Source: a virus. From it: a stretch of DNA of 38,336 nt. Of the stretch, positions 3,853-38,336 are shown one piece after another. Numbering within the stretch: the first letter of the stretch is position 1; every line of letters begins with the position of its first letter. A program made the position numbers and the translations under genes. The stretch is from positions 1 through 38,336 of IMG/VR virus record IMGVR_UViG_3300035184_000116; one strand, 5' to 3'. Below the pieces are notes generated by a model, which was not told where the DNA came from, searched no databases, and saw only the letters and a program-made list of their open reading frames with translations.

Positions 3853-4225
3853 TGAACAAATTAGAATATGTAAAAAATGTAACGTACCTAAACTTTTAAC
3901 TGAATTTCATAAAGACGGTAAATACGTTAGATATGATTGTAAAAAATGCAGCCTTGCAGTCAAAAAGGATAGAAGGAAAAAAAACAGAACTTGGTTAAAA
4001 GAATACAAAGAAACACTTTCGTGTACTGTATGTGGATATTCTAAAAAAACCAATGAATCATTTTCTAGCAGAGCATTAGAATTTCATCACCAAACAAATA
4101 ACAAAAGTTTTTCAGTTAGTGATGGTATCGCTCAAGGCAATTCAATAGACACTATTAAAAAAGAAATAGATAAATGTATCGTGGTTTGTGCCAGGTGTCA
4201 CGCTGAGATTCATTCTTTAAAATAA
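3842..4225 (+). CDS. zinc-finger HNH endonuclease, 127 aa
   Basis: A DNA endonuclease of the HNH family, either free-standing (homing-like) or a packaging/replication helper. Seen: an N-terminal zinc ribbon with Cys10-x2-Cys13 and Cys33-x2-Cys36; a basic linker (KKDRRKKNRTW) likely to bind DNA; and the structural zinc pairs Cys61-x2-Cys64 and Cys116-x2-Cys119. The active-site LEFHH has His82-His83 on the first strand, and His120/His124 lie at the end of the beta-beta-alpha finger. The fold is complete. Its 3' end overlaps the converging 2571-residue gene by 9 bases. Being at the edge of the early cluster, away from the terminase, it fits a mobile or accessory nuclease better than a TerL partner. 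Confidence 0.82.
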   Translation: MSSDEQIRICKKCNVPKLLTEFHKDGKYVRYDCKKCSLAVKKDRRKKNRTWLKEYKETLSCTVCGYSKKTNESFSSRALEFHHQTNNKSFSVSDGIAQGNSIDTIKKEIDKCIVVCARCHAEIHSLK

Positions 4226-7200
4226 TCCCCCTCCTGATTTTTTCTTACCACCTAATAATGGTCCACCACTATTTGTTTTTCTTTTTCTATTAGTTTTTGT
4301 TTTCGTTTTTGTCTTTCTTTTTATAGGAATACCTGAATCACCTTTTTTCTTTTTATTCCCACTCTTTTTGTATGATTTTACATTATACTTAATAATAGAT
4401 CCTGCTTCAGAAGGTAAACCTCCTAGTCCATATAAAAAATATAAAAACGCGTTTGCACCAACATCACCTTTTACAGAGGGGTCTACTTCCCTGGTCTTAC
4501 CATATTTATCTTTATACGATCCAGTTGTACTAATTCTAACCATCTCAATTAAATCTGCAGCATTTTGTCCTTGTATACCTAAAACACCTAATTGTTGTAA
4601 AAATGTTTTCTCATCATTAGCGAAAAACTGAAAAGGATCTTCGTCATTACTAACCGCTTCTATCATTTTATTAACACCATACATAATTTGATCATCTATA
4701 ACAGGAATAGGAGATAAAATATCTGTAACAACATTACCAGCCCTACCTTTAACTCTGTTTTCAAGTGATTTTTGCTGAGCTTCTTCATCATCATCTCCAG
4801 TGAGTCCTTGAGATATAGCAGCCAATCCTTGAGTTACAGCTAATCCGAGTAAATTAAACATAGCTGTTTCTACACCAAGACCAGCTAAAGAGCGATATGC
4901 ACTTCTTTTATCTTCTTTTGTAGCTGTTTTACTTGCTGCTATATTTATATCTGTATACATTCTTGTTTTTTGATTTGTCAAGAAGTTAGCAAATGGAAAT
5001 AATGTTTTACGAGCAAACTGCGCACCAAAACTTTTTCCTTTAAATAAATCACCTTGTAAGTCTACATCCGAAACATTCTGTTGTCTTCCTACTTGTTGTT
5101 CAGCAAAAGCACCTGCTTTTTTATTTACCTTATGATTTGACCAATCAATGTTAGAAGGATCTATACCTTGTTTTTTTAAGTCATTCATATAGTAAGCCAT
5201 CCAAGAGGCTTGAGCCGCAAACTTATCTGGAGCAACTAAGAACCTTTGTAAATATTCTTTTTGAACTTCTAACAAAACATTACCAGCCTGCTCTAATTTA
5301 CCTTCAGCAGCCCTATCCATTTTTGTGTTAGTCCCTTCTAAATTTGTTACAGACTGTATACCACGATTTGCAATTTCATAACCAGAATTACTCAACCACT
5401 CTCTCGCTTCAGGACTTGATGTCATTAAAGAAATACCTTTACCAACAGAACCAAGGTCAAACATTAAATTTGTAGCTGTATTAAATAACGGAACTAATTG
5501 TTTAGGTATTTGTGTTGGTCCACCTAAAACCCTAGAGACTCCGATACCCGCTAATTTATTCATTATTTTAATAGATTCTTTTTCTGTAGCCTTTTCACTT
5601 GCTCCTCTTTTGGCATTTACGTAATTCTGAAACTTGCTAAAAAGAAGATTTCTGTTATCTACATCAGGAACTAAGTTTTTAAAGGCGGGGTTCATTTTAT
5701 TTTTAGTACCCATAAATCCTTTCATTATCTGTATACTCTCTGCTGTTTCAAGATCCGTTAAAGCATCTTTTAAATTACTAATATTTGAAGAATCAAACCC
5801 AAGGTTTACTACTCTTCCAGTTGGTAAAGCTTTAGGTCTAGTAACATCCATTAAAACCCCTGTTTTTTTATCATAAAACTTTTGAGAAGCTCCTTGGAAC
5901 TGAGGCGTTCCAATCTCTTGATCAACACTACTGTCTTGATTTTTCAATAAACTAAATGAGTCTGGAGTATAGTTTATATCCTTACCTAAAACCTTGTTAT
6001 ATACGTTTAAAGATACATTTTCTAATTCAGGTCTAATTTGTGACCACTCAGCAGACATCCACTCAACAGCTTCTCTGTTTATTGGATCAACCTTATTTTC
6101 AATATCCTGTACGCTATTAGATCCCGAAAGTATTTTATCAGCAGCATCCTTAATAAGTTGAGATTTTTTTGTTTCCCCTGAGTCATTTAAGGTTGCAATG
6201 GTTTCTTCAATTAAACCCTTACGTCTTTCAAATTCATTTTGTTGCTCCTCCTTAGTTCCATCTACTGTTCTTCTCATAAAAGCAAACAAACCTCTTTCTG
6301 TATCATTAGCCGCCGTGTTAAAATCTGTACCGTTGGGCTGTGTTTTTGTAGTGCCTTTTATCGCATTCTTTCTACTCGTTGGTTTTATAAACTTATCTAC
6401 ATAAGATTGAGCAATTTTATTTGTAATTGTTTCAGCTTTTGCCACTCCGTTCCTAAATCCGTCAAAACCAGATAACTTATTGAAGACCCTAGCTGTAGAT
6501 GTCCCTTTAAACATATTCTCCATTATTCTAGGAGTATTGCCTAAATATCTAAACCAAGTATTAGCAAATGCTTTAGATCCAAAGTATTTTAAAGTTTTTG
6601 CTGGCTTTAATAACTTATTTGCTTTGATAACATTCTTCATTCCTTCATTACGCTTGGTTGTGGCAACCATACCACCAGAACCTTGATTAACAATAAAATT
6701 AACCATAGCATCTAAAGCTTCTAGCTTTTCTTTAGCGGTAGTCATTAAGTCAATATCAACTTCCATAAAGTCTTTTATAACTTTCTGATCAGCCTTACTT
6801 ATAACTAAAGGCTCGCCACTAATAGGATCAATGCTGTTTTTTATAATATCATTAATAGATTTTTTATAAAAGGCAAAAGCCTTCTTAACAGCTTTAGTTA
6901 TTTTATCGTCTTTTTCATTGGCTTTTTGTTCATTAGTTTGGTCTAACTCCTTAGAGCCTGTTTCCTCTAAAATAGAACGCATTTCCGCAATACTAAATTC
7001 ACTAGGATCTAGCCCTGTTAAATCACTAAAAGCTTTAGCCTCAGCATCACTAATTGTTTTTGCCTCTTGAATAATTGTTTCGCTGGTATATTTGTCTATT
7101 GCTTTTATGTCTACTGTACCCGCAAAAATAAGATTACCTTCTTTATCTGTTTTGGTTTTAGTTAAACCATTTACAATTCGCTGAGCATTGTCTAGGTATA

Positions 7201-10200
7201 AATCTAAATCACTAACTAAGTTAGGATCAATCTTATTAAACTGCTTTGCTGCGATGGAAACCTCTGCATCTAAGCTTTCGCTTTTTAAAAGTTTTTTTAT
7301 TTTATTAGACAAATTCTTAGCATCATCAAACTTCTTTGCGTTAGCAGCATCCATACTAACCTTTGTAACATACTCCAATACCTGGCTTACCAAACGAGGA
7401 TTATTAAGGTTTACACCAGAGATCTTTTTAATTAAAGCTTTCGCTTTTTTTGTTGTTATAGTTTTCGATGTCAGTAAGTCCTGGATAGCATCTGAAAGTT
7501 GTTTTCTTCTAGTGGTCTGATCTTTTTTAGATTCCCTGTAAGACTTGTTCCAGCTTTTCCAGAACTTTTTTCTATTTACATTTTCACCCTCTTCTTTTGT
7601 TTTGTCAGATGATGTTTTCTTTTTTCCTAAAATTTTATCTGGAGAAGGACCTTTCTTTTTTCCAAACACACCAGGCTCAGAAGCTTCCTTCTGTGATATA
7701 TCTTTACCTTTTTTCTTAGTTACACTAATAGGTTCTCTATTAGGATCAATATTGTTTACAGTCTCTATGTTTGTTGGCGTAGCCTTTAACCCCGTTAACT
7801 GTTCAAATTTATTTTCTAAACTTGTTTCAACATTTGATATACCTGATTCAATATTTAGTTTCCCAGTAGGATTTGCTGTTATAAAATCAATAACATCTTG
7901 AATATATTGGCTTTCGTTTTCAGTAGTATAACCCTGAAGACCAGAAACACTGGTATCAAGATCTGACTTTGGATTTTGACCGAATTTGTTTTTTTTCTTA
8001 AACCAGAAACGACGCATTTGAGGAGTAATGTTATTAGGGTCTCCATACTTGGCGTAATCTGCTTCAGTAATTTTCCCTATTTTACCTTTAATATCTAAAG
8101 GATCAGCTCGCTGTTCTTTTTCAGCCTTAGTTAAATTTTTTCTATTTTTTCTTTCTACAGCAAGAGTCTCTGCAATTTCTTTTATGTTGTTTGACTTATC
8201 AGCTACCTCCTGAGAATATTCTGTTTCCGTTAAATTAGTTGACGCGTCCAGGTCTAGTCGAGTACCTTCATTAACATCAATGACATCTTCCAATATCATC
8301 TTGTTGGCTTTTAATTGTCTACCTCTACTAACGGGTTTATCAGTGTTTTCTTTTACAGCAACAGGATTAGCCGTGCCATCAGCATTCATTTGAACCTGAG
8401 TTTTAGTTCCAGGAACCACAAACCTACGAGACTCTTCTTCTATTTTTTGGTCTCTATTCTCGTTTAACTGATCAGACTTTACTTGTTGTTCTGGAGTTAG
8501 CGTCTTCTCATCAGCGACGGTAGTTTTACGTGCGTCTCCTTTTCCCATTCCTTGCAGTTCCACGTTATCGGCTTCCCTTGTTTCTTTGCTTCCGCCATCA
8601 TCTGATAGCACTTGCTCCTCTGTTTCTGACTTTTGAACGGCATCTTTATTTGTTTTAAATTTGTTAGGATTTTGTTTTATCATCTTCCCATCTACCACTT
8701 TGTATATATCATAGTTGGAAATATCTCTTGCTGGGGTGTTAGGTTTTGGTAAAAGAACACCTCTACTGTCTTTACTAGACTCTTTATTTACAAAGCTTAA
8801 ATTAGGTTGAAAGTTTTTTACGTCTACTGTCCCAGGTTTTGACACAATTACATATCCACCTTCATTTTTTTTAACCGTATTACCATAAATACCTCCTTGT
8901 TGAAAATTAGGGGTTTGTCTATTATCTCTATTAACTTGAAACTTAGTTTTGTTACTAGAAGTGCCTTCTACAAAATCATCTAAGTTCTCCACCCGACCAA
9001 CAATTTGACCTCCATTTACCCAATTTTCTATAGCCGCTCTACTCCTTGTTTTATGAGTTACAACTTCGGGACCATAAATAGTTGGAACTTCATCTACAGT
9101 TATTGTTTGTTCTACAAAAACATCAGTTTCAGTATCTGATTTAGATTGAATGGCATCGGTTTTTTCTTTTATAAGGTTGTCTTGTTCTTTTAAAATATTC
9201 TCTTCAGACTCTAAAACAACAGGTAATCCAGCTTTTTCTCTAACCTCGTTCTCAGCCTTTAAAGAAGCTAAAGCTTCCTCTTTGGTAACAGTAGTAGTCA
9301 CAGTCCCTTCTTTCTGTTGATTCATTATGGCTTTAGCCTCTGCTGTATCTTTCTTTTTTAAAGCATCAATTTGAGAATCAACTCCCTCAATCTTTTTGTC
9401 TATCTCTAGTTTTAATGGTCCTTCTAATTCTGCTCTCTTAGCCATTAACTTTTGTCTTTGGCTTAGTAAGGCGGCAGCTGGCTCTATATTGGAGCTAACC
9501 AACATAGTACCTTGTGTTTGGTTTATACCAGTTTGCATATTGTAAACCTCTGTGTAAACAGATTTACCCTCTGCTTCAGTAATAGTACCGTTATTTACAG
9601 CGTCAGAAATATCTTTTTCTATGTTAGAACTTTCAGTAGCAGCTTTTAATAAGTCTTTCCTTCCGTTGTTCGTTAACAATGTTCTTGCTCCTAGTCCAGA
9701 TGTAGCCCCTAATGTAAGAACCACAGTTTCTATAACAGAAGCTTTAGATACTTCTTGATCTAAAATTTCTTTACCAATAGACTCATTAGCTAATCTATTT
9801 AAAAAAGCACCACTATACAACACAGGAAGCTCTTCAATAACAACTTCCTTAAAGTTTTCTTTGGCTAAGTCTTTTACTTTTTGTTTAAATGCCTCGCTCT
9901 TAAATACAGTTTTTGGTTTTAAAACAAGATCTCTTAATGTAGCAGCAGCATTTTTATTAGCAGTTAATAGTTTTGTATTTGCTCCAGCCAAACCTGAAAA
10001 TAACCCATCTAAACTTGCGCGTCCATTTCCATATAATATAGCTCTATCCATCGCTTCGTCTTCAGAAAGACCAGCTTGCATCAATTGACTCTTTATACTA
10101 TTTACCTCTGTAGCTACAGAGCTTCCGTAAGAAACCGCAGCCATACCAACACCACCTTTTACTTTTCTTCCAGTAGACTTTAACGCTTTGTTTATTGATT

Positions 10201-11932
10201 TAGTAGCCCACTGACCACCTTTAATTAATCCAATCAAATTAACAATCATTCCTGTACCTCCTTGAACAACAGAACCTCCTGTTGCTGTTATTTCAAACTC
10301 TGGTATATTTTTAGCAGAATCATTAACTTCTTTTACCTGCTCGTTTGTTAACAAGCCACCCATTGACACCATTGTATTCATATCAACAATATCTCCCTGT
10401 GGAGTTAATCCTACTTGCATTGGTTTTCCTTGCCAATTTATAGTCACCTCTTTTACTTCATTAAATGCAGCTCTTTCTACTGGAGATGTATCTATAGCGC
10501 CATCAAAGGTTCCAATCTCGTTGTTAACCATAGCGTCCAAACTTTCATTTAAACCCCTAGCACCACTCATATCTAAACCTGCTAAATTACCACCTTGTTC
10601 TATCCAAGAAGGTATTGCAGTAAGTAACCCTCCAGCAAATTTTAATCCAGAGTCAACTGCCGTTAAGACCATATTAGAAGTAGCTCCAGAAAAATCTCCA
10701 GATCTTTGATTCATAATATACTCTTTCCTACGAAGTTTTTTTACATCGTCTTGTTTTTGTAGAGCAGGAAATAAAGACAGGAAGTTATACTGTCTACCAA
10801 TGTTTTTAACTTGAGCCTGTTTAAGTGCTTTTTGTTTTGCTAATAAAATAGCTCTAGATTCTGGGTTAGATTCAAATTTCAATCTATCACCTATAAGATC
10901 TATGTCATTTTGTATATCATCTCCTAGTGAATTTGTATAGGCTGATAATTTTTGAAAGTTTCGCTTGTCTATTAAAAGCTGTTCATCTTCATCGCTATTT
11001 ATTAAGTCTCTAATCTCTGAGTAAACAAAGTCATCTTCCTTTGTGTTTTCTCTCTCCCAGGCTTGATAGTCTGAAAGATCCACATCAACCTTATCTAAAA
11101 GATCTTTAGATATAGTCCCTTTTGCATCAATCTCATCAAGATCTTCCTCAGAATAAAATAATTTATTTAATAAGTTTCTTTCTCTTGGAGCCTCAGTGGC
11201 TATCATTCCCGCTGGAGTCGCTCTATCACCTAAAACTTTACCGTCTTGCGTGATAGTTGTCTTTAAGAAGTCTTTTTGTCCAGGTAGTTGTTTTTTACTA
11301 TTAAAGTTTACATAACTCTGTAGTACATCTCCATCATTAAAGTCGTATGAAGACATTGTTTTAAAATCAGAAGAGCCTTCAGCGTTCATTGGCTGACCAA
11401 ACATATCGTTTTGTCCGCTTAAACGAGGTTCGTCCTCATCATTTTGTTTTAAACTATCAATATAGTTCTGTTGCTCCTCAGTTGGTAATTCAACAAAAGG
11501 AACACCATCAACGACAACGTTATTTACTTTTTGAAAATTTTCAGTAGGATCTCCAGAATCCGATAAGATACCTTCTGTTTCTAGAATTGGTGTAATGCCA
11601 CCCGTATTTTCCGTCTCCCCAGTGGAATCGACAGACGCATCTTTTTTTTTTAATGTACCTCCGTCAACTAAGGATTGTGAGCGCTCTCCATATTTCTTAA
11701 CAACATCTTGACCGCTTATTTCGCTACCATTAGGGCTAATATAAAACGCCTCAACATCAAAAGTAACCTCAACTTCTTTTTTAGTTTCTTCTTTCTTGTC
11801 AGCGGGTTTGTCTGTTTGCTTAAAAGTTCCGCTATCTAACAATCCTTGAAGTCTATTTCCGTATTTAGATTTAGCTTCACTCTCCGTAATTACAGACCCA
11901 TTAGGGGTTTCAAATAATAATTCGTCTTCCAT
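4217..11932 (-). CDS. giant internal virion / polyvalent-type protein, 2571 aa
   Basis: Last gene of the virion cassette; probably a capsid-internal protein ejected with the DNA, as T7 gp16 is, by position and size. It begins with two copies of a ~35-residue repeat (residues ~7-41 and ~63-98; core F-x(2-3)-PNGS-x-I ... KYG-x-R ... LVD-x-GT-x-K). Hydrophobic, possibly membrane-active helices lie at ~417-450, ~552-572, ~695-751 and ~2345-2375. A coiled coil is at ~820-870 and low-complexity Lys/Ser/Thr linkers at ~1408-1455. A conserved-looking segment at ~2208-2325 (DKFAAQASWMAYYMNDL, FPFANFLTNQKTRMY) resembles the C-terminal domains of large polyvalent phage proteins. The end is a basic KTKTKTKTNRKRK tail. 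I see no RNA polymerase DxDxD centre, lysozyme or transglycosylase motif. The frame is uninterrupted over 7.7 kb, so it is certainly coding; the role is inferred. Confidence 0.75.
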   Translation of the reverse strand: MEDELLFETPNGSVITESEAKSKYGNRLQGLLDSGTFKQTDKPADKKEETKKEVEVTFDVEAFYISPNGSEISGQDVVKKYGERSQSLVDGGTLKKKDASVDSTGETENTGGITPILETEGILSDSGDPTENFQKVNNVVVDGVPFVELPTEEQQNYIDSLKQNDEDEPRLSGQNDMFGQPMNAEGSSDFKTMSSYDFNDGDVLQSYVNFNSKKQLPGQKDFLKTTITQDGKVLGDRATPAGMIATEAPRERNLLNKLFYSEEDLDEIDAKGTISKDLLDKVDVDLSDYQAWERENTKEDDFVYSEIRDLINSDEDEQLLIDKRNFQKLSAYTNSLGDDIQNDIDLIGDRLKFESNPESRAILLAKQKALKQAQVKNIGRQYNFLSLFPALQKQDDVKKLRRKEYIMNQRSGDFSGATSNMVLTAVDSGLKFAGGLLTAIPSWIEQGGNLAGLDMSGARGLNESLDAMVNNEIGTFDGAIDTSPVERAAFNEVKEVTINWQGKPMQVGLTPQGDIVDMNTMVSMGGLLTNEQVKEVNDSAKNIPEFEITATGGSVVQGGTGMIVNLIGLIKGGQWATKSINKALKSTGRKVKGGVGMAAVSYGSSVATEVNSIKSQLMQAGLSEDEAMDRAILYGNGRASLDGLFSGLAGANTKLLTANKNAAATLRDLVLKPKTVFKSEAFKQKVKDLAKENFKEVVIEELPVLYSGAFLNRLANESIGKEILDQEVSKASVIETVVLTLGATSGLGARTLLTNNGRKDLLKAATESSNIEKDISDAVNNGTITEAEGKSVYTEVYNMQTGINQTQGTMLVSSNIEPAAALLSQRQKLMAKRAELEGPLKLEIDKKIEGVDSQIDALKKKDTAEAKAIMNQQKEGTVTTTVTKEEALASLKAENEVREKAGLPVVLESEENILKEQDNLIKEKTDAIQSKSDTETDVFVEQTITVDEVPTIYGPEVVTHKTRSRAAIENWVNGGQIVGRVENLDDFVEGTSSNKTKFQVNRDNRQTPNFQQGGIYGNTVKKNEGGYVIVSKPGTVDVKNFQPNLSFVNKESSKDSRGVLLPKPNTPARDISNYDIYKVVDGKMIKQNPNKFKTNKDAVQKSETEEQVLSDDGGSKETREADNVELQGMGKGDARKTTVADEKTLTPEQQVKSDQLNENRDQKIEEESRRFVVPGTKTQVQMNADGTANPVAVKENTDKPVSRGRQLKANKMILEDVIDVNEGTRLDLDASTNLTETEYSQEVADKSNNIKEIAETLAVERKNRKNLTKAEKEQRADPLDIKGKIGKITEADYAKYGDPNNITPQMRRFWFKKKNKFGQNPKSDLDTSVSGLQGYTTENESQYIQDVIDFITANPTGKLNIESGISNVETSLENKFEQLTGLKATPTNIETVNNIDPNREPISVTKKKGKDISQKEASEPGVFGKKKGPSPDKILGKKKTSSDKTKEEGENVNRKKFWKSWNKSYRESKKDQTTRRKQLSDAIQDLLTSKTITTKKAKALIKKISGVNLNNPRLVSQVLEYVTKVSMDAANAKKFDDAKNLSNKIKKLLKSESLDAEVSIAAKQFNKIDPNLVSDLDLYLDNAQRIVNGLTKTKTDKEGNLIFAGTVDIKAIDKYTSETIIQEAKTISDAEAKAFSDLTGLDPSEFSIAEMRSILEETGSKELDQTNEQKANEKDDKITKAVKKAFAFYKKSINDIIKNSIDPISGEPLVISKADQKVIKDFMEVDIDLMTTAKEKLEALDAMVNFIVNQGSGGMVATTKRNEGMKNVIKANKLLKPAKTLKYFGSKAFANTWFRYLGNTPRIMENMFKGTSTARVFNKLSGFDGFRNGVAKAETITNKIAQSYVDKFIKPTSRKNAIKGTTKTQPNGTDFNTAANDTERGLFAFMRRTVDGTKEEQQNEFERRKGLIEETIATLNDSGETKKSQLIKDAADKILSGSNSVQDIENKVDPINREAVEWMSAEWSQIRPELENVSLNVYNKVLGKDINYTPDSFSLLKNQDSSVDQEIGTPQFQGASQKFYDKKTGVLMDVTRPKALPTGRVVNLGFDSSNISNLKDALTDLETAESIQIMKGFMGTKNKMNPAFKNLVPDVDNRNLLFSKFQNYVNAKRGASEKATEKESIKIMNKLAGIGVSRVLGGPTQIPKQLVPLFNTATNLMFDLGSVGKGISLMTSSPEAREWLSNSGYEIANRGIQSVTNLEGTNTKMDRAAEGKLEQAGNVLLEVQKEYLQRFLVAPDKFAAQASWMAYYMNDLKKQGIDPSNIDWSNHKVNKKAGAFAEQQVGRQQNVSDVDLQGDLFKGKSFGAQFARKTLFPFANFLTNQKTRMYTDINIAASKTATKEDKRSAYRSLAGLGVETAMFNLLGLAVTQGLAAISQGLTGDDDEEAQQKSLENRVKGRAGNVVTDILSPIPVIDDQIMYGVNKMIEAVSNDEDPFQFFANDEKTFLQQLGVLGIQGQNAADLIEMVRISTTGSYKDKYGKTREVDPSVKGDVGANAFLYFLYGLGGLPSEAGSIIKYNVKSYKKSGNKKKKGDSGIPIKRKTKTKTKTNRKRKTNSGGPLLGGKKKSGGGLF

Positions 11933-15126: not shown

Positions 15127-15537
15127 TTATAATTTTTTTATCATTTCTTTATTGTATTGACCAGCTTCTAAGTAACCCTCTTCCTTATAAATATTTATTA
15201 AAGAATCAGATTTAATTAAAGCATAAGCATACTTGCATTTACTTATTTTTAAGGTTTCAGTTAAAGTTAATATAAGCTTTTTTAAAGCCTCTTTTCTTTT
15301 TAACTTGTCCTTGTAATTAAAATTAGAGATAATCCAATCACACCAACCTACTTTGGAATTAGTCACATAAATAAAGCCTGCACAAACAGGAATATCTTCA
15401 TCGTAAATAATATATCCACCTTTACCATCTTCAGGTAAAAAGTCTTTAGGAGGAGCTTGCCATCTCCAATCATTCCACCAATTTACTAAAATTTCATCGT
15501 AATCGGTAGGGCTTAATTTTTTTATCGTAAATCCCAT
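15127..15537 (-). CDS. GNAT-like acetyltransferase-fold protein, 136 aa
   Basis: The fold order fits a GNAT protein: an N-terminal strand and helix (FTIKKLSPTDYDEIL), Trp-rich segment (NWWNDWRWQAPP), strands GGYIIYDEDIPVCAGFIYVTN and KVGWCDWIISN, a central helix EALKKLILTLTETL, strand KYAYALI, and the final helix plus GYLEAG. The usual acetyl-CoA loop (Q/R-x-x-G-x-G/A) is replaced by a Lys-rich KDKLKRKEALKK without glycine, so activity is uncertain. GNAT-like genes recur next to the internal virion proteins of several podovirus groups, and this one lies in that position. It may modify host or virion proteins, or be structural. Confidence 0.7.
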   Translation of the reverse strand: MGFTIKKLSPTDYDEILVNWWNDWRWQAPPKDFLPEDGKGGYIIYDEDIPVCAGFIYVTNSKVGWCDWIISNFNYKDKLKRKEALKKLILTLTETLKISKCKYAYALIKSDSLINIYKEEGYLEAGQYNKEMIKKL

Positions 15538-28065: not shown

Positions 28066-30501
28066 TCATCTTGGCTCAAACTCCGCTAAATCAAAACCAT
28101 CTAAACTATCTTCTTTTGATTCAAAAGTTACTGGAGCTAAATTATTTTTACGTTGTTGAATTAATTTTGACTGCTCTGTGTTTGCTTGACTTATTCTATC
28201 TGCCTTAGCAGTTTCTCTCTGACCCTCTCTTTGAGACATAGCATCCATCTCAACACCTTTTAATTTCATTTGAAGATCAAATTCTAATTTCATAAGCTCA
28301 GCCTTTATAGAAGCTTCACCCTGCATTTTTTGAACCTGGAACTCCATATCACTTTGTTGCAATTGTACTTGAGCTTGTGTTTCAGCTTGTAATTTTTGCA
28401 TTGCAGCCTGTGCAGCCATCTGTTGAGATTGCTGATTAATCTGCGCTTGTTGCTGTGCCGCAGCAGCTTTTGATTTCTCTTCAGCCTCCTGCTTTCTTTT
28501 TCTTTTAAGTTTAAGAACTTGATTGGCAACCTTTAAGTTTTTAATTTCCCTAATATCAATTGCATCCTCTAAGTTAATAGAATCCCTTTGCAAAGCCATC
28601 TGGATGTTTTTCTCTAGCATAGCTCTTTCCTCTTCATCAGGAGTTACTTCTATAAAAATACCAAAATCACTTAAATATAAATTCTTAATTTCATTTAAAA
28701 CTGAAACATTATATTTTCCAATTTGGTTTATAAATTCATCTCTAAAATCTGCATACTCTAAAACATCTGCAATTCTTGAAGATAATGCAGTTGCTAAATT
28801 CTGAGTAATACTTAAACCAGCTTGTAATATATGTCTTGTAGCTGTATTGCTATTTAAAGCAGCCATTTTCTGTAAACCTACTAATGAGTTTTCATCTGGC
28901 ATTGATCCATCTCTAGCTTCATTTAATCCAGTTACATCTCTAATCATATTTAAATAATGATTATAAGTACCAATTAAACTTTGAATTTTTGATTGACCAG
29001 AACTAGCAGTTAATTGTTGAATAGGAACTTTGGCTTGATTGTAATCTCCATCTTGAGTATAACTTCTACCAATAACACTACCTGTTTGAAAATACATTCT
29101 TAATGCATCTTCAGGATTATAGGCAGCACCATTTCCCAAGTCTACTTCGTTTAATCCATCGGCATCTATAAACACACCGTCTGGGACCACCTTAGAAAGA
29201 ACTTGCTGTAGCTTTAAATGAGTTATCTGAATTAAATCAGCAAAGGTTATCATACGCCTAACTAAAGACTCTAAAACACCTTTATACATCCTTGGCGCAC
29301 ACGCTATAAATTCAGGGTATACATTTTGACTTGCTGATTGTGGTCTAGCCATATTCTCAGCCATTTCCCATTTAAGCAAAATACTGGTCCCCATAACCAT
29401 TACACCTTCATACCAAACATCAATAGTTTTTGAAACTTTTTTAAAATTGCCTTCTTCCATCATTTCAGCAGAAGGATCAAATTCATCATTTTTTTCAATA
29501 ACTTTTTCAGCACCTACATTATTAATTTTTTTCTTATACGTAAAGGTGTTTGTCGTTTTGTAATTAAAAAACAAAACAGTAGCACTGTCTTTACTGAATA
29601 AACTATTATTATAAAACTGAGATGTATTATGGTAATCATACCAGCTCTGACTATATTTAGAAATCTCATCCATATCTTCATTTGTCAAAGTAGGATCTAT
29701 TTTCTTTAATTCAATAATAGGTAGAGTTTTAATTTCACCCCAATAAAAACAATCTTTAAAATGCGGATCTTCTGTGTAACTATAAACCAAGTTAGCTGGA
29801 TCTACATAGTCAATTTTAATTCCATCACCTGGTAAAAAAGAATGTCTAGCCACAGAGATACCTAAAACTGTTTGATCGTAATCTAAACGTCTTTTAGTTT
29901 CTAAATATTTATTTTCTTCAAATACAGTATTAATAGCCTCTTCTTCTGCTATCTCTATTGATGGCTTGTATTTCATTTGCATATGCAAAGCAAGCTCCTC
30001 ACTATCGTTAGGTAACTCATCTACATTACTAGAGAACGCATCTACATCAAAATCTTTGTTAACCTGAGTAATTAATTCTTTAGAAGCCATATCAGCAGCA
30101 ATCATACGCTGATATTCATTCCTTCTATCCATTGACATAGCATCTTGTGCATAGGCATTTACCTGAAAAATTCTATCAGACATACCATTAACAACAATAT
30201 CTACAAACTTAGGTATAATAGGAACAGGTGTCCAATCTAAGTTAAGATAACTTAAATCACCATCAACCGCTAATTCATTTTTATACTTAGAAACAGATTG
30301 CTCTCCTCTAGCATAAAGCCTTAATCTATGAAAGTCACCCCATTGATTATAAAATCTATTTGTATTTCCGTCTTTCCTAAACCATTCGTATTGAATAGCC
30401 TGTCCTATCTGTAATCCAAATTCTAATGATTTCTTTACAGAATCAGAAACAAACTGACTTGGAAATCCTGTAGGATTAATGTCTATTTTTACATCTTGCA
30501 T
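28066..30501 (-). CDS. portal protein, 811 aa
   Basis: The dodecameric channel at the packaging vertex. The N-terminal part (LRLYARGEQSVSKYKNEL, then VPIIPKFVDIVVNGMSDRIF) matches portal proteins of crAss-like phages. The middle has the wing and stem region (KGVLESLVRRMITFADLIQI; RDVTGLNEARDGSMPDENS). The last ~120 residues (about 655-775) form a long Gln/Ala-rich coiled coil (KRKRKQEAEEKSKAAAAQQQ onward), likely the barrel helix inside the head. At 811 residues it is longer than T7 gp8 but normal for this group. Its ATG follows the TerL stop without a gap (TAAATG), which shows coupling. Confidence 0.88.
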   Translation of the reverse strand: MQDVKIDINPTGFPSQFVSDSVKKSLEFGLQIGQAIQYEWFRKDGNTNRFYNQWGDFHRLRLYARGEQSVSKYKNELAVDGDLSYLNLDWTPVPIIPKFVDIVVNGMSDRIFQVNAYAQDAMSMDRRNEYQRMIAADMASKELITQVNKDFDVDAFSSNVDELPNDSEELALHMQMKYKPSIEIAEEEAINTVFEENKYLETKRRLDYDQTVLGISVARHSFLPGDGIKIDYVDPANLVYSYTEDPHFKDCFYWGEIKTLPIIELKKIDPTLTNEDMDEISKYSQSWYDYHNTSQFYNNSLFSKDSATVLFFNYKTTNTFTYKKKINNVGAEKVIEKNDEFDPSAEMMEEGNFKKVSKTIDVWYEGVMVMGTSILLKWEMAENMARPQSASQNVYPEFIACAPRMYKGVLESLVRRMITFADLIQITHLKLQQVLSKVVPDGVFIDADGLNEVDLGNGAAYNPEDALRMYFQTGSVIGRSYTQDGDYNQAKVPIQQLTASSGQSKIQSLIGTYNHYLNMIRDVTGLNEARDGSMPDENSLVGLQKMAALNSNTATRHILQAGLSITQNLATALSSRIADVLEYADFRDEFINQIGKYNVSVLNEIKNLYLSDFGIFIEVTPDEEERAMLEKNIQMALQRDSINLEDAIDIREIKNLKVANQVLKLKRKRKQEAEEKSKAAAAQQQAQINQQSQQMAAQAAMQKLQAETQAQVQLQQSDMEFQVQKMQGEASIKAELMKLEFDLQMKLKGVEMDAMSQREGQRETAKADRISQANTEQSKLIQQRKNNLAPVTFESKEDSLDGFDLAEFEPR

Positions 30502-32748
30502 TTACCTTATAATTTTGCTGTAACTTCCCTTATTGTCATATCTTGCAAAGTTAAACTTTATTTTTGATTCTTTTTTAACCGCCTGATATAAGTGTTTCTG
30601 AATAGCCATTAAAGCCAGCCCAGAACTGATAGTAGCATCAAACTTAGTTCTATTGTTAATATCAAAACGCGCCCAATCCTCTAAAGTACGACTAAAATAC
30701 ATATTTCCTATTAAATCAGGGTCTCTATAATCTCCACTAAAATCTAATCCTACGTGTTTTTCTATGTAAGATTCAATAGAAGATGCGTGCGATTGCTTTA
30801 CATCTTCACTTGAGTTTGGTATACCACCCAATTCTTTTTCAGTTTTAGATAGTTTATTATAAGTTTTATCTGGTCTATTTATACTATACCCTCTATAGCC
30901 TCTGTTTTTAAAATGATACAATAATCTAGGTTTATTATTCTCTACCAATATTGGCATTCCATAAAAAACACAAGCCATTAATACTTCTTCAAAAAAGATC
31001 TCAGCTGTTTGTGGTCTAGCAACATACTCTAAAAAAAACTCATTACTTGGAGCGTCATCCATATTAAATCGAGTTACTCCGTGCAATGCACCATTAGATC
31101 CACCTCCACCTACTGTACCAGATATATCATAACTGTCACAACCAAAAGCACCAATATGATCATTACCTGGCTTTTTACTTCCGTTCTTAATATAGCTCTT
31201 ATTTTGCAATTCTTTTTTAGGTGTCCAGGAAATTAAAAACCTACCACGAGTATCTGGACTCCATAGAACTTCTCCGTCTTTTACTCCATTCTTCCAATTA
31301 AAATTACCACGAGTTAAAAACCTATCTTTTATTAAAGAATCGTTGTAATCTATTTGTTGGTATATTTTAGTTAAGTTAAATAATGATTGCTTACTCTCAT
31401 CTCTAAATGCGTGAGACTCAGTTCTAGGAAATTGTCTGTAAAATTCATTTAAAGCATCTGCATCATTTTTTAAAGAATCTACTTCATTCTGCCAATACTG
31501 TACAGCAGATATTTTTATTAACTCTCCATCAATACCAAGTATCTCTTTAGAAACATCATTAATAACAGGCATACCATAAACATCTATAAACCCCTCCATA
31601 TTATATTCCATAGGGATGAAAAGTGAATATAACCCGCTTTTAGTTTGACCATTTGAATTACGTGATACCGTATTAGAATCGTTATATAATTTTTTAAAGT
31701 TTTCACCACCTTTGTCAAGTGCGTTTGATGTTGATCCCATCATACATTTTCCAATAACTTTACTCCCTAATCGTAAACAAGTTTTTGTTACCCTCCAGTT
31801 GTTTAAAATATTACTAGGTCTTTCCCACTTTCCACTTTCATCGTGTACTAGTAACTTTAACTTCTCACCATCATAAGAGTTGTCTCCTGTGTTCTTCCAG
31901 TCAATTGTAGTGTCTAGACCCTCTACCTGTAAGTCATCTTCTTCATACATATTTCTTTTTGTAATCTTAGAAGCTGGTACCCTGTAGGCTAGTTCTGTTT
32001 TTGGTTTATCCATACCATCTTGTACTGGCTTAAAAAAGAAAGGATAATTATTTGATATAGGAACTACTTTATCAGTAAACATTTTTTTAGCATCTGCCCC
32101 TGTTTTAGACAAAATACCTATTCTAGAATCTTTAGATATAGTTGCAATATTAGCACACTCTTCACTTCCCATATAAGAAAATCCAGAACGTCTAATTTTT
32201 AAGTAACATATTCCAAAACTTCTTTTGTCTGCCTTACAGGCTTCCCAGTAAATATAAAAAATTCTATTAGCCTCCCTAAAATCAGGTAGCCCAATATCTA
32301 TTTTAGTCCACTGTAAGTACATATAATGAGACCCAGTAACATAAGTAGAAAGACCATTATTCATAAACCAAAACCCCTCGTCTCTTTTGTCAAACTCTTG
32401 CTCAATGTATTCTACCCATTGATCTTTAAAGTTTGCAGAGGTTTGATGCCACTGAAAAATAGTTGGTATTTTTTTTAATAACTTAGGAACCTCAAATGAT
32501 TCCCAGTATTGATCTGCTTTTGTTTCAGACCTTCTGTATATTTTTTTTGGCTGTTCAGGTAAAGCGATTGCTAAACCATTTATAGAAATAACATCTCCTA
32601 TTTTTCCAGACTTAGAGATTACAATAACATTGTATTTTTCATCAAATCCATAGCTCCAATTTTTAGCCTTGTTCTTATTAGTAACAATGCTTTTAGGAAT
32701 GTAATTTGGTAATTTTACATATAAGTTATTTTGATCTTCTTTCTGCAA
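30502..32748 (-). CDS. terminase large subunit, 748 aa
   Basis: The packaging motor ATPase and nuclease. Residues ~183-195 hold the Walker A-like loop RRSGFSYMGSEE, which lacks the usual GK(S/T); this deviation is known among large terminases. Walker B with the catalytic acid is LLVHDES at ~298-304. Nuclease-domain acid residues are in GAFGCDSYDISG near ~531-543 and a later Asp in SGDYRDPDLIG. A C-terminal basic segment ends the protein. The adapted first ~110 residues include YRRSETKADQYWESFEVPKL, a lead-in seen in this group. The start overlaps the end of the small upstream gene by 23 bases, and the portal gene follows directly. Confidence 0.9.
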   Translation of the reverse strand: MQKEDQNNLYVKLPNYIPKSIVTNKNKAKNWSYGFDEKYNVIVISKSGKIGDVISINGLAIALPEQPKKIYRRSETKADQYWESFEVPKLLKKIPTIFQWHQTSANFKDQWVEYIEQEFDKRDEGFWFMNNGLSTYVTGSHYMYLQWTKIDIGLPDFREANRIFYIYWEACKADKRSFGICYLKIRRSGFSYMGSEECANIATISKDSRIGILSKTGADAKKMFTDKVVPISNNYPFFFKPVQDGMDKPKTELAYRVPASKITKRNMYEEDDLQVEGLDTTIDWKNTGDNSYDGEKLKLLVHDESGKWERPSNILNNWRVTKTCLRLGSKVIGKCMMGSTSNALDKGGENFKKLYNDSNTVSRNSNGQTKSGLYSLFIPMEYNMEGFIDVYGMPVINDVSKEILGIDGELIKISAVQYWQNEVDSLKNDADALNEFYRQFPRTESHAFRDESKQSLFNLTKIYQQIDYNDSLIKDRFLTRGNFNWKNGVKDGEVLWSPDTRGRFLISWTPKKELQNKSYIKNGSKKPGNDHIGAFGCDSYDISGTVGGGGSNGALHGVTRFNMDDAPSNEFFLEYVARPQTAEIFFEEVLMACVFYGMPILVENNKPRLLYHFKNRGYRGYSINRPDKTYNKLSKTEKELGGIPNSSEDVKQSHASSIESYIEKHVGLDFSGDYRDPDLIGNMYFSRTLEDWARFDINNRTKFDATISSGLALMAIQKHLYQAVKKESKIKFNFARYDNKGSYSKIIR

Positions 32749-33004
32749 ATCCTTGAGAGTTATTAGTATTCTTTTTTACATCAATACCTTCTATTAAATT
32801 TTTTTCAGCTTCAATCCTAGTTAATATTTCAAAAGCATCAAATATAGCTAACTTCTTAGTAGCTGCTGCATTTTTTAATTTGTCAGCCGCTAACTCATCG
32901 TCTTCCCCATATTTAATTATTTGTTCTTCAGCAACTTTTATAAGCTGCATAACAGCTTTTTCACCTGCTTTTATTATTTGTAATTTTATTTGCTTTACAT
33001 CCAT
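32726..33004 (-). CDS. candidate small terminase subunit, 92 aa
   Basis: A helical charged protein (QIKLQIIKAGEKAVMQLIKV, EEQIIKYGEDDELAADKLKN, TKKLAIFDAFEILTRIEAEK) directly before TerL and overlapping it by 23 bases. Small terminases are usually helical oligomers encoded in this position. No clear helix-turn-helix is visible, and at 92 residues it is shorter than most TerS proteins, so the call rests on context. It could instead be an unrelated small helical protein. The start uses ATG one base after the stop of the GroES-like gene. Confidence 0.45.
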   Translation of the reverse strand: MDVKQIKLQIIKAGEKAVMQLIKVAEEQIIKYGEDDELAADKLKNAAATKKLAIFDAFEILTRIEAEKNLIEGIDVKKNTNNSQGFAERRSK

Positions 33005-33005
33005 A

Positions 33006-33569
33006 TTACAATACCATTGTTATATTACTAGTAAACATTCTATATAGCTTTTCGCCATCAACCATAAAAAGATATTCGCTTGAAGGCTCGTAACAAATAG
33101 TGTCTCCTTCGTTTAATCCTTTAGCTAACAACTCAGCATTTATGTATTTTATAACTCCAGTTAAAGGTTCTTCAATGTTTGCAGCTTTAATATATGAATC
33201 TTTTTTTAATAAAGGCTTAACCATTACATATTTAGAATGACATTTCCATTCGTCTTTATGCTTGTACATAAAAAACTGATCCATATCTATAAAGAATAAA
33301 TTGTCTTTAAAAAAGCTTTTACCGCTTCTTTCTTGACCTTTCATATCATTATAAAACTTAAATACGTTGTGATGAACTAAGAGAATATCTCCTGGAATTA
33401 TTTCTCCAGTATATCCTAGAGGGGTACTAATAACTTTTGCAAACCTATTGGAAACGGTATGATCTTCTTTAGATGAACTCATAATTAAGTTAACATCTCC
33501 TATCTTTTTAATATTATCATACCTTCTTCCATTGTCTGGTTCTACAATGAAATAAAAAGGTGACTTCAT
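33006..33569 (-). CDS. tandem GroES-like (Cpn10-fold) protein, 187 aa
   Basis: Both halves read like a chaperonin-10 barrel. First half (about 4-105): FYFIVEP, then FAKVISTPLGYTGEIIPGD, ILLVHHNVF and NLFFIDMDQFFMYK. Second half (about 112-187): KYVMVKPLL, PLTGVIKYINAELLAKGLNE, GDTICYEP and VDGEKLYRMFTSNITMVL. In each the order is V-x-x-P, a G-x-V/I strand, (I/L)-x-x-GD, and a final strand ending in a hydrophobic-aspartate/serine-(I/F) motif, as in GroES. A mobile loop of ~15-20 residues between the first and second strands is present in both. It may act as a phage co-chaperonin for host GroEL in capsid folding, like T4 gp31, or be a virion protein that reuses the fold. Its place beside the terminase supports a morphogenesis role. 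Confidence 0.6.
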   Translation of the reverse strand: MKSPFYFIVEPDNGRRYDNIKKIGDVNLIMSSSKEDHTVSNRFAKVISTPLGYTGEIIPGDILLVHHNVFKFYNDMKGQERSGKSFFKDNLFFIDMDQFFMYKHKDEWKCHSKYVMVKPLLKKDSYIKAANIEEPLTGVIKYINAELLAKGLNEGDTICYEPSSEYLFMVDGEKLYRMFTSNITMVL

Positions 33570-33793
33570 TAGAAATTTATATTATATTCGATTGAAATTG
33601 GAATATTAGAATTAAACTCTTTCCACAATAAAATCTCATTAGATTTTTCAATCCATATTTTATAAGAATCTAAGTTAACATCTTTTTGTATTAAATGGAT
33701 TTTATAATTCCCCCCAAGGACTTCCTGCCCAGCTATGTAATGCATAGCACTAGACTTATAGTCTGCCCCTATAGAAATTTTCCTTATGTCCAT
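33569..33793 (-). CDS. small conserved hypothetical protein, 74 aa
   Basis: Short beta-rich protein beginning MDIRKISIGADYKSSAMHYI, with a GNYKIHLIQKD strand and an ending SIEYNINF. I recognise it as the sort of small protein that recurs in marine Bacteroidota phages between tail and terminase genes, but I know no function. It overlaps the GroES-like gene by one base (TAATG). No membrane segment or cysteine is present. Confidence 0.6.
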   Translation of the reverse strand: MDIRKISIGADYKSSAMHYIAGQEVLGGNYKIHLIQKDVNLDSYKIWIEKSNEILLWKEFNSNIPISIEYNINF

Positions 33794-35040: not shown

Positions 35041-36231
35041 TTAAAAATTAGTGTCATATTTTACTAGAAAAAATGAGTACGTATAAAAACCAACGTATGC
35101 GTTATATTCTGATCTGTCGTGAATAAAAAACATTTCGTCTTCTTTAGACGCCTGAGCTATATCTCTTAAGTCAATTGTAACGGTTCCATTTAAAGCTGAA
35201 TATGTAATTTGTAGTCTTCGGTTAGAAACATACGTGAGAGCATTATTTGTTTTTTTATACTGGTAAAAAGGCACATTACCACCAGTAATACTTGCACTAA
35301 GTAAAAATTCATCATTACTACCTAAAGTGCCTTTTAAAACAAAACCAGAAGGTTCGCCTGTTAAACTAGAATAACCTGTTTGACTAGGTATGTAACTAAA
35401 TAAGGAGTTGGTGTCTGAGAGTTGATAACTATTAACTCCAGATAGTTTACTACCTACGTAATTATAGTTTGAAAATTTACTAGTATATAAATAAGTAGCT
35501 TTCCAGTCAGTAGTGCCCCTCACGTATATTAAATCTGTTGATTGGTCAGTGCTTGTTACAGGTAAAGAACATTCGTTTGTAAGCTCGTATTCCATAATCC
35601 TAGTTTTCACGGTTCCCGATTGGTAAGGAACTCCTGCTTCTACACTCACTGTTAAATAAATCTTTGTATTATCTGTAGATATAGCAGATGTAAGTTCTAG
35701 GTAATTACTAGATTGACTTGTCGTTGGTAGCGGTACTGAAATTGACTCTACATCAACAAATGTAGGAGAGCTTATATTATATGCAGCAGAAAGATTGTAT
35801 TCTATAAAAGTTACAACATTACTAATAGAAGTACTCCCGTCTGTATAATTAAAACGAGTCATAACAACAATAAATTTAGTTCCCGTTGAATTAAAAAAAC
35901 AACCATTAGCAGATCCTAACAAATAGTTAGTACCGTAACGTGTATAATTATAAGCGCTTCCACTACCAGTTCCATAAACAGGAATTTGAGTTTTTGTTTG
36001 ATTATCTAAATCAGCTAAAGTCCAGTTAGGGTTTAAAGTCCAAGGATTATTACCATAGTTTCTAAAATTTAATAAACTGTTTTTAGAGCCGCTAAAAGTA
36101 GAATCCCACTGAGAAGGGGTAGTAGCATTAGCGTCCCCAATAAGCTGGGAAAGTGTAGGGGTTGAAGTTGGTGGATCAATAAAATCCGCAACATCTTGCA
36201 TACTGAAAGTTGTGGTATTTGGTACACCCAT
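35041..36231 (-). CDS. tail appendage protein with conserved N-terminal module, 396 aa
   Basis: The N-terminal ~60 residues (GVPNTTTFSMQDVADFIDPP, TLSQLIGDANATTPSQWDS, GSKNSLLNFRNYG) form a module that recurs at the start of different Bacteroidota phage appendage proteins; I infer that it anchors the protein to the virion. The rest (WTLNPNWTLADLDNQTKTQI onward) is beta-strand-rich with repeated Tyr/Ser/Thr, perhaps a propeller or receptor-binding domain. No signal peptide and only two cysteines. It shares one base with the fibre gene upstream (TAATG). Receptor recognition is likely but not shown. Confidence 0.65.
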   Translation of the reverse strand: MGVPNTTTFSMQDVADFIDPPTSTPTLSQLIGDANATTPSQWDSTFSGSKNSLLNFRNYGNNPWTLNPNWTLADLDNQTKTQIPVYGTGSGSAYNYTRYGTNYLLGSANGCFFNSTGTKFIVVMTRFNYTDGSTSISNVVTFIEYNLSAAYNISSPTFVDVESISVPLPTTSQSSNYLELTSAISTDNTKIYLTVSVEAGVPYQSGTVKTRIMEYELTNECSLPVTSTDQSTDLIYVRGTTDWKATYLYTSKFSNYNYVGSKLSGVNSYQLSDTNSLFSYIPSQTGYSSLTGEPSGFVLKGTLGSNDEFLLSASITGGNVPFYQYKKTNNALTYVSNRRLQITYSALNGTVTIDLRDIAQASKEDEMFFIHDRSEYNAYVGFYTYSFFLVKYDTNF

Positions 36232-38336
36232 TATATTCCTGCTTTTTCCAACCTTGCCTCTAACTCAGCAATTTTAGCTATTAATAAATCTATATACTTT
36301 ACTGACTTATACCCCCTGTCGTCAGTATCAACAAATTCAGGGTGTGTTTCCTCAAGCTCTTGAGCTATAACACCTGTTCTATAATCGCCCTCATTACCTT
36401 TCATTTCAAAAGACTTCCAAGATATATCTATATTATCACCTGTTAAATCCTCAATTTTAGTTTTATGTCTTATATCAGAATTTAATTGAAAGTTATTAGT
36501 TTTACAAACACCTGCAGTTGAAAACGAAACCTGATTACTCCAGTCCCACGTTTCTCCACCATCTGCAGTAGAAGGAGCCATTACGTATGTATCGTCAGAA
36601 GCTATATGGTGAACCCAAGATTTATAAGTCGAATTTACTTTTATATAAAAAGGCGTTGTGCTATTTTGAATTAATGCTCGTCCGTCAACAGTTAGTTTTT
36701 GACCTGGTGCAGTAGTTCCAACACCTACATTACCCCCATAAGGATTTATAGCTATATCTCTTCCAGTGGTTGCAGCATTGTTCGTAGCTTGAATGTATTG
36801 TCTACTTCCAGCTCCTGAACTAAAGGTTATTTTACTATCAAAAGTTCCTGAAGATTTTACTACAAGTCCAGCCCTATTTAAAGTATCAGATAGATTTACC
36901 GCATAATTTGTGTCTGTCCTAAATACATCTAATTTACCATCAGGATTATTATTTCCAATACCTACGTCCCCACTGCTATTAATTAACATCCTAATATTAG
37001 TACTACCTGTAATACTACCGTTATTTGTCTTAAAGACTAAGTCCCCTTGTGAAGCAAGTGTTAGTATATTACCTTCTAAAGTACCTATTGCGTTTACTTG
37101 ACCTCCATCATCATCAGTAAACCGTATTATAGAATTTTTATCAACCCCCCCTGAAGAAATTATAAGCTGAGCTGTATTATCACTTGTATCATTACCCTCT
37201 ATTTCCAACTTAGCACCAGGATCAGCCGTACCGATCCCAACGTTGCCTGAATTATTATTAGATATATTAGTACCATTAGAACTCCAATGAGTTCCACTAC
37301 CTCCACCGCTACTAGCGTTTGGTAGTTTTATTAAAACCCACGCAGCAGAACTAAAATCAAGTCCGCCTTGCATATTATTTGTTTCACTAGGGTACTCATC
37401 AAAGAATCCTTGAATATTATCATCATTACCAAATCCAGCTGTTACAAAAGTATCTTGTCCACTAAAAACTCGTGTAGCAGATACAGTAATCTTAGCATCT
37501 GCAGCGCCTTCCCAATTGAAAGCATTTGCAGTTGCTGTCGTATACGCGGCTGATGGATTTGTAACATTGCCATCAGACATTCTTACAAAATTTTGAGCTG
37601 GATTCACCCATCTACCAAAACCATCATAAGCACCATTTATACCCCATCCATACTTAGTGCTTAAAGCCATTCCATTATCCGTACCTCCACTAAAGAAATA
37701 CTTCCAAGGTCTACCTTCAGGAACACCATAAATAAAATCAACAGTTCTAGTGTCTCTCCATTTTGTAAAATCTGTAGCGCCCATTATCCTAACCTCTGTA
37801 GGATAACTGTCGCCAAAGTCAGCGGAGAATTCAGTTGTTTCGTTTTGAGTATCACCTGTTGACAACCCACTTACGGATGACCAAGTGCTTTGAATAGCTG
37901 TCATTGCGCTAGCAGCATATCTACCTACTAAAATCCATTCTCCATAATTATCTGTAATTACTCTACATTGTTTTAATCCTCCATTAGGCGTTTGTATTAA
38001 TCTTATTTCTGATGTATATACCCCAAAGTTTGTTGGAGTTGCCGTAGTACTTAAATCTTGAGTAGGTGTTGTTATATTTCCAACAACATCCAACTTAGCC
38101 CCAGGACTAGTCGTCCCGATACCTACGTTGCCGCTACCCTCCAGGGTCATAATAGTAGGTGCTTCGGTGGAACCTGTCCAATCATAGCCACTTGCTGTTT
38201 CTCCTCTTATTTTGAATTTTATCTTAGTTTCAAACGTTGTATTAGGAGTTCCTTCTGCTCCAATCCAAGCGTGTCTTCCGTGACCTGATGCATTAGCTTT
38301 ACCTACTAACTCCAAAGCAGCCGCTGCTGTAATTAC
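36231..38336 (-). CDS. tail fibre with C-terminal peptidase S74 chaperone domain (5' partial)
   Basis: The frame stays open to the window edge (upstream residues VITAAAALELVGK), so the start is outside and the first in-frame TTG is not a start. The visible 701 residues hold four copies of the fibre motif G(N/D)VGIG-x-x-x-P-x-x-KL at about 70-84, 364-380, 455-471 and 535-550 (the last as GVG), between beta-rich segments. Residues ~615-701 are an S74 intramolecular chaperone: NSDIRHKTKI carries the Ser and Lys of the self-cleavage dyad, then GVIAQELEETHPEFV and a final coiled coil LIAKIAELEARLEKAG. The chaperone trimerises the fibre and is cut off after folding. Receptor-binding role is standard for such fibres. 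Confidence 0.88.
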   Translation of the reverse strand, partial: VITAAAALELVGKANASGHGRHAWIGAEGTPNTTFETKIKFKIRGETASGYDWTGSTEAPTIMTLEGSGNVGIGTTSPGAKLDVVGNITTPTQDLSTTATPTNFGVYTSEIRLIQTPNGGLKQCRVITDNYGEWILVGRYAASAMTAIQSTWSSVSGLSTGDTQNETTEFSADFGDSYPTEVRIMGATDFTKWRDTRTVDFIYGVPEGRPWKYFFSGGTDNGMALSTKYGWGINGAYDGFGRWVNPAQNFVRMSDGNVTNPSAAYTTATANAFNWEGAADAKITVSATRVFSGQDTFVTAGFGNDDNIQGFFDEYPSETNNMQGGLDFSSAAWVLIKLPNASSGGGSGTHWSSNGTNISNNNSGNVGIGTADPGAKLEIEGNDTSDNTAQLIISSGGVDKNSIIRFTDDDGGQVNAIGTLEGNILTLASQGDLVFKTNNGSITGSTNIRMLINSSGDVGIGNNNPDGKLDVFRTDTNYAVNLSDTLNRAGLVVKSSGTFDSKITFSSGAGSRQYIQATNNAATTGRDIAINPYGGNVGVGTTAPGQKLTVDGRALIQNSTTPFYIKVNSTYKSWVHHIASDDTYVMAPSTADGGETWDWSNQVSFSTAGVCKTNNFQLNSDIRHKTKIEDLTGDNIDISWKSFEMKGNEGDYRTGVIAQELEETHPEFVDTDDRGYKSVKYIDLLIAKIAELEARLEKAGI

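Follow-up and report, generated by a model that had tools for sequence, protein, structure and literature searches.

A tandem GroES-like protein encoded near the terminase and portal genes of Bacteroidetes phages is a candidate double co-chaperonin

Introduction

How an even number of domains caps the seven-fold GroEL is a long-argued question for the double co-chaperonins of plastids. A mobile loop, about 20 residues long, mediates the binding of GroES to GroEL (PMC4242682). The plastid double Cpn10, known as Cpn20, can work with GroEL, either as tetramers in which one domain is not used or together with Cpn10 in mixed rings (PMC3542282, PMC4242682). In Chlamydomonas, the ClpP complex carries CPN11, CPN20 and CPN23 (PMC8889267). 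T4 gp31 is a phage-encoded protein of the GroES fold with a role in morphogenesis; it has a single domain and uses the host GroEL.

Chaperonin genes are also known from the phages closest to the virus described here. GroEL was reported earlier in their phage group (PMC5332604), GroEL and GroES in Panino (PMC11590407) and a methylated GroEL protein in phi38:1 (PMC13288928). Bartlau et al. listed 'chaperonin cpn10' among the three strictest Pervagoviridae core proteins (PMC8776804). The phage Calle carries a separate single-domain GroES in addition to a gene of the tandem family analysed below that is named 'chaperonin Cpn10', so the 'cpn10' of the core list could mean either. The family has already been catalogued under GroES-type names, as phrog_13932 and in the Calle annotation. 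In the open-access journal literature searched, neither its two-domain architecture nor its co-occurrence with a single GroES was found to be described.

The analysed stretch, referred to as the window, is the 38,336-nucleotide IMG/VR record IMGVR_UViG_3300035184_000116, taken at its full length.

Results

The tandem gene and its family

The gene of the tandem GroES-like protein lies on the minus strand at 33006..33569 (stop codon included), starts with an ATG at 33569 and encodes a product of 187 aa. Its 5' end overlaps the stop codon of a 74-aa upstream ORF (33569..33793, minus strand) in the sequence TAATG, and 1 nt separates its end from the next ORF. The upstream ORF had no match in PHROG, and an ORF of similar size occupies the same place in relatives. 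A dN/dS of 0.11-0.15 against relatives, together with at least 595 confirmed relatives in IMG/VR, indicates that the tandem ORF is a real gene under purifying selection. Further relatives were present in 77 phage records and in 15 contigs of genome bins, and the source virus is a virus of Bacteroidetes bacteria. A peptide-pattern search with the Panino query returned no relatives in the set of viral contigs. One relative (L162, CP070801.1) came from a metagenome bin assigned to Candidatus Aenigmatarchaeota, on a 'chromosome' of 1.05 Mb; an archaeal gene is the less likely explanation, and phage DNA that the assembly placed in this bin the more likely one.

Over its whole length, the protein aligned to the profile of the family phrog_13932 (named 'co-chaperonin GroES'; E 4.2e-23; residues 1-183 against profile positions 1-195 of 200), and it had no match among the Pfam models, Cpn10 included. 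Matches to YabJ and beta-2-microglobulin, obtained with phmmer from the single sequence against the PDB, were regarded as chance and dropped. Members of phrog_13932 in the Pervagoviridae and Pachyviridae, namely phi38:1 gp089, Calle, phi18:3 gp096, elemo gp30 and Panino CDS0088, share with the window protein the family, a similar length and the position ahead of the terL and portal genes. At the sequence level, the window protein shares about 30-37% identity with the proteins of phi38:1, Calle, elemo and Panino, and 59% with that of the Manatee Spring phage.

Two GroES folds in one chain

The initial annotation, made from the sequence alone, had proposed a duplicated Cpn10 fold at 33006-33569 with motifs in the GroES order in both halves. 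The motifs were found at the expected strand positions, and the duplicated fold was borne out by profiles of the two halves, by model matches in relatives and by AlphaFold2 models of the whole protein and of its N-terminal half.

The half-profiles were built from 50 sequences and compared with a target profile of ten phage single-domain GroES and one sequence that we take to be E. coli GroES. The N-terminal domain (residues 1-105; 33255..33569, minus strand) matched the GroES profile with p 6.6e-5 and the C-terminal domain (residues 106-187; 33009..33254, minus strand) with p 9.2e-6, and the real score was reached by none of the column-shuffled half-profiles (0/200 for each half). The direct comparison of the N-half profile with the C-half profile was not significant. 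As the halves do not match each other, their common ancestry rests on each of them matching GroES. In relatives, the C-half matched the Pfam model PF00166 (Cpn10) over the cut-off in phi18:3 (8.5e-8), phi38:1 (2e-6) and the contig L088 (3.7e-5). Matches of the N-half to a single-domain model were confined to elemo, where residues 14-64 matched the single-domain GroES family phrog_3188 (E 3e-4).

The AlphaFold2 model of the whole protein (alignment A2) had a pLDDT of 82.2 and a pTM of 0.76. Its top full-length match in the PDB was chain R of 7ekq (194 residues, Foldseek E 1.5e-5), which aligned with a VIA Z of 10.6 over 160 residues and spanned residues 1-187, i.e., both halves. The entry is titled only 'CrClpP-S2c'; the length of the chain and the composition of the Chlamydomonas complex (PMC8889267) point to chain R being a Cpn20-type double subunit of this algal ClpP/co-chaperonin complex. 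The next matches were GroES chains aligned to the C-half with Z about 8-10 (about 10 over 79 aa), and T4 gp31 had a Z of 7.6. The N-half modelled alone (residues 1-106, pLDDT 83.2) also matched GroES/Cpn10 best: 1wnr (Z 8.1 over 73 aa), 3nx6 (8.0) and 1g31 (7.0). Because its Foldseek matches were weaker (best E 0.027), the N-half appears to be the more divergent of the two domains. Alcohol-dehydrogenase-type GroES-like domains reached a Z of 5.5 or less and ranked under Cpn10 in the structural lists, and neither the whole protein nor the N-half gave a better match to an unrelated family. The models thus place a GroES beta-barrel of the Cpn10 fold superfamily in each half, and the protein has two Cpn10 domains in one chain.

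Such a fused form had been expected to be unusual among co-chaperonins; it is not unprecedented, as the plastid and apicoplast Cpn20 show (PMC4242682, PMC3542282). With P. falciparum cpn20, complementation of a conditional groES E. coli strain has been carried out (PMC3542282). Like these proteins, the phage protein has two Cpn10 folds per chain and, in its complete relatives, a single-domain Cpn10 alongside, and its top full-length structural match is a double-size chain, probably of the Cpn20 type. It differs in belonging to a phage rather than a plastid, and the structural alignment shows an identity of no more than about 14%. With T4 gp31 it shares the phage-encoded GroES fold, both halves matching 1g31, although gp31 is single, whereas the tandem family is double and its members have a single GroES besides and, in most cases, a GroEL of the phage. 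With canonical GroES/Cpn10, to which the single GroES of these phages belongs, it shares the fold, the strand order and the profile matches to both halves; the tandem protein differs as a fused pair with atypical loops and an invariant HHN.

Mobile loops and invariant residues

The loop of the N-domain in the mobile-loop position, placed by profile alignment, comprises residues 12-41 with G-D-V-N-L-I (33447..33536, minus strand). Its sequence, YDNIKKIGDVNLIMSSSKED, is a loose match to the GroES mobile loop (GDVNLI), and its residues 21-40 had the lowest pLDDT of the tandem model, about 55-63. The loop of the C-domain (residues 121-137; 33159..33209, minus strand; alignment A1 and loop comparison), LKKDSYIKAANIEEPLT, is short (about 17 residues) and has no G-G-hydrophobic motif. 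In phi18:3, both loops are GroES-like: the N-domain has KTESGLELHADRR, with KTESGLEL, and the C-domain, whose loop is longer than that of the window protein, has PSLIYIPEDNKEKTIEGK (mobile-loop segment SLIYIPEDNKEK). The N-domain loop of elemo retains NGLILN. A loop that resembles a mobile loop, with glycine and hydrophobic residues, is found in both domains of phi18:3 and in the N-domain of elemo, while in the window protein the match is loose in the N-domain and missing in the C-domain. In the window's lineage, the short C-domain loop and the loose N-domain match could mean that GroEL is bound weakly or no longer at all.

The residues invariant in 50 sequences are, among others, Y17, E35, R42, P50, D61, H66-H67-N68, G78, Y142, N144, E165, Y176 and I183. 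The H66-H67-N68 triplet follows the N-domain G-D and is encoded at 33366..33374 on the minus strand; we know of no co-chaperonin motif to which HHN corresponds.

Single-domain GroES and GroEL in the same phages

A separate single-domain GroES is encoded by all six complete named phages examined (6/6), and GroEL by five of them; the complete phage without GroEL is phi18:3. Of the 13 IMG/VR contigs that extend 13.7 kb or more beyond the tandem gene on its upstream side, all carried a single GroES (13/13) and 12 a GroEL (12/13). The 72.8 kb contig L088 (G045) carries the tandem protein and a single GroES, and GroEL was not detectable in it. As no GroEL of their own was detected, L088 and phi18:3 would use that of the host. 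The initial annotation had suggested that the phage protein could adapt host GroEL, which is too narrow a description for the complete relatives, most of which bring their own GroEL and all of which a separate single GroES.

In relatives, the usual distance from the tandem gene to the GroEL region upstream of it is about 9-16 kb. A GroEL search of the window record returned no match, which carries no weight because the record includes only 4.8 kb on this side and the equivalent region falls outside it; the window's phage probably encodes GroEL and GroES as well. Two contigs with 13.1-13.6 kb upstream (L036 and L009) were without GroEL, and in L009 the space is taken by long tail-type genes. 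The co-occurrence of the tandem gene with GroES and GroEL is partly a matter of shared ancestry.

The terminase-portal neighbourhood

The terminase large subunit (30502..32748, minus strand; phrog_6681, E 6.4e-175) and the portal protein (28066..30501, minus strand; phrog_6547, E 9.6e-140) follow the tandem gene. The gene had been described as standing beside the terminase; it is near it and in the same cluster, but a 92-aa ORF (32726..33004, minus strand) lies between the two. This ORF is weakly similar to residues 72-149 of the phi38:1 TerL, in its N-terminal extension (blastp E 0.003), and on this weak match to a TerL extension it is not claimed to be a small terminase subunit. An ORF of 92-94 aa accompanies a TerL of ~748 aa in the window and in the Manatee Spring phage; elemo, phi38:1 and Panino have a single TerL of ~876-879 aa with an N-terminal extension of ~130-150 residues.

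In the named phages, the tandem gene precedes terL and portal either directly or with one small ORF between. This arrangement was observed in Elemovirus, Callevirus, Maribacter phage Panino, the Manatee Spring phage and phi18:3, the last of which belongs to another family, the Pachyviridae.

Discussion

The best reading of the tandem protein is the phage co-chaperonin that had been suggested at the outset. By analogy with plastid Cpn20, in which two GroES folds are likewise joined head to tail in one chain, we lean towards a protein that caps a GroEL-type chaperonin during the folding of head or packaging proteins. The tandem gene would probably be translated together with the terminase and portal genes. 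Its product would most likely help to cap a GroEL-type chaperonin, phage-encoded in most relatives and otherwise that of the host, and the clients during capping would be head or packaging proteins. A seven-fold GroEL ring needs seven domains, and doubles alone would give an even number. As a single-domain GroES accompanies the tandem protein in every complete relative checked, a mixed ring, e.g., three doubles and one single GroES, would be the most economical arrangement; a ring of this kind has been proposed for Cpn10 and Cpn20 of plastids. Here we infer the binding to GroEL, the ring, its mixed stoichiometry and the clients alike. The tandem protein is not classed as a Cpn20, only as one that would work like it, because its C-domain mobile loop is short and without the motif, while Cpn20 is reported with mobile and roof loops in both domains; the phi18:3 relative retains both mobile loops.

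What speaks against a co-chaperonin is that phages already encoding GroES need another role for the tandem protein. The synteny with terL could indicate that this role is specific to packaging. The main rival, possible although on the doubtful side, is an exapted GroES-like ring independent of GroEL, i.e., a non-virion assembly factor that would act directly on the terminase or the portal while the single GroES serves the phage GroEL. It would account for a tandem gene that always stands just ahead of the terL module when GroEL and GroES are located elsewhere. The strictly conserved Y17, E35, R42 and H66-H67-N68 are in line with it, and complexes of plastid Cpn20 serve as caps for ClpP as well, a ring other than GroEL (PMC8889267). 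Moreover, the GroEL-binding loop of the C-domain looks reduced in the window's lineage, which makes a repurposed assembly factor possible there. However, phi18:3 retains GroES-like mobile loops in both domains, and the tandem protein is constantly accompanied by GroES and usually by GroEL.

A more specific form of the co-chaperonin reading is put forward as speculation, and we hold it to be rather improbable: the phages of Bacteroidetes would have evolved a two-component lid independently of plastids, in which a packaging-linked double and a single GroES form a mixed seven-domain ring on the phage GroEL, dedicated to the folding of virion or packaging proteins.

The location of the gene within the structural cluster would also suit a virion component derived from the GroES fold, such as a neck, portal or head-decoration ring, and a virion part had indeed been proposed initially. 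The virion annotations of two relatives make this unlikely. In the part of the phi40:1 record that was covered, the annotations assign an MS/MS detection to 14 proteins, mostly in explicit terms and for two of them through cut-off notes; neither gp089, of the tandem family, nor gp090, the TerL, bears a virion mark. The same holds for gp096 of phi18:3, of the tandem family, in a record that flags the portal along with many structural proteins. These annotations argue for a non-virion morphogenesis factor, but weakly, since a protein without a mark may still be present. An anti-host factor, acting as a decoy lid to capture or block the GroEL or ClpP of the infected host, is very improbable: double co-chaperonins may bind ClpP (PMC8889267) and a reduced loop in one domain could give a poor lid, but the gene lies in the morphogenesis cluster, not among replication or early-type genes, and is kept with the terL module in two phage families.

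The tandem family is widespread among phages, shares the architecture of the plastid double co-chaperonins and has members in culturable phages (phi38:1, elemo and Panino), so that the idea of a mixed lid becomes directly testable in bacteria. The same applies to the reason for which a phage would need a second kind of lid, with the gene of one of the two placed beside the terminase.

Three other genes of the window were characterised by eye. A tail-fibre-like protein is encoded at 36231-38336, and its end resembles an intramolecular chaperone of the S74/endosialidase type. The largest gene (4217-11932) is a single ORF of 2571 aa that has charged stretches and may code for a virion protein that is ejected. 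A 136 aa ORF at 15127-15537, among virion genes, resembles a GNAT acetyltransferase.
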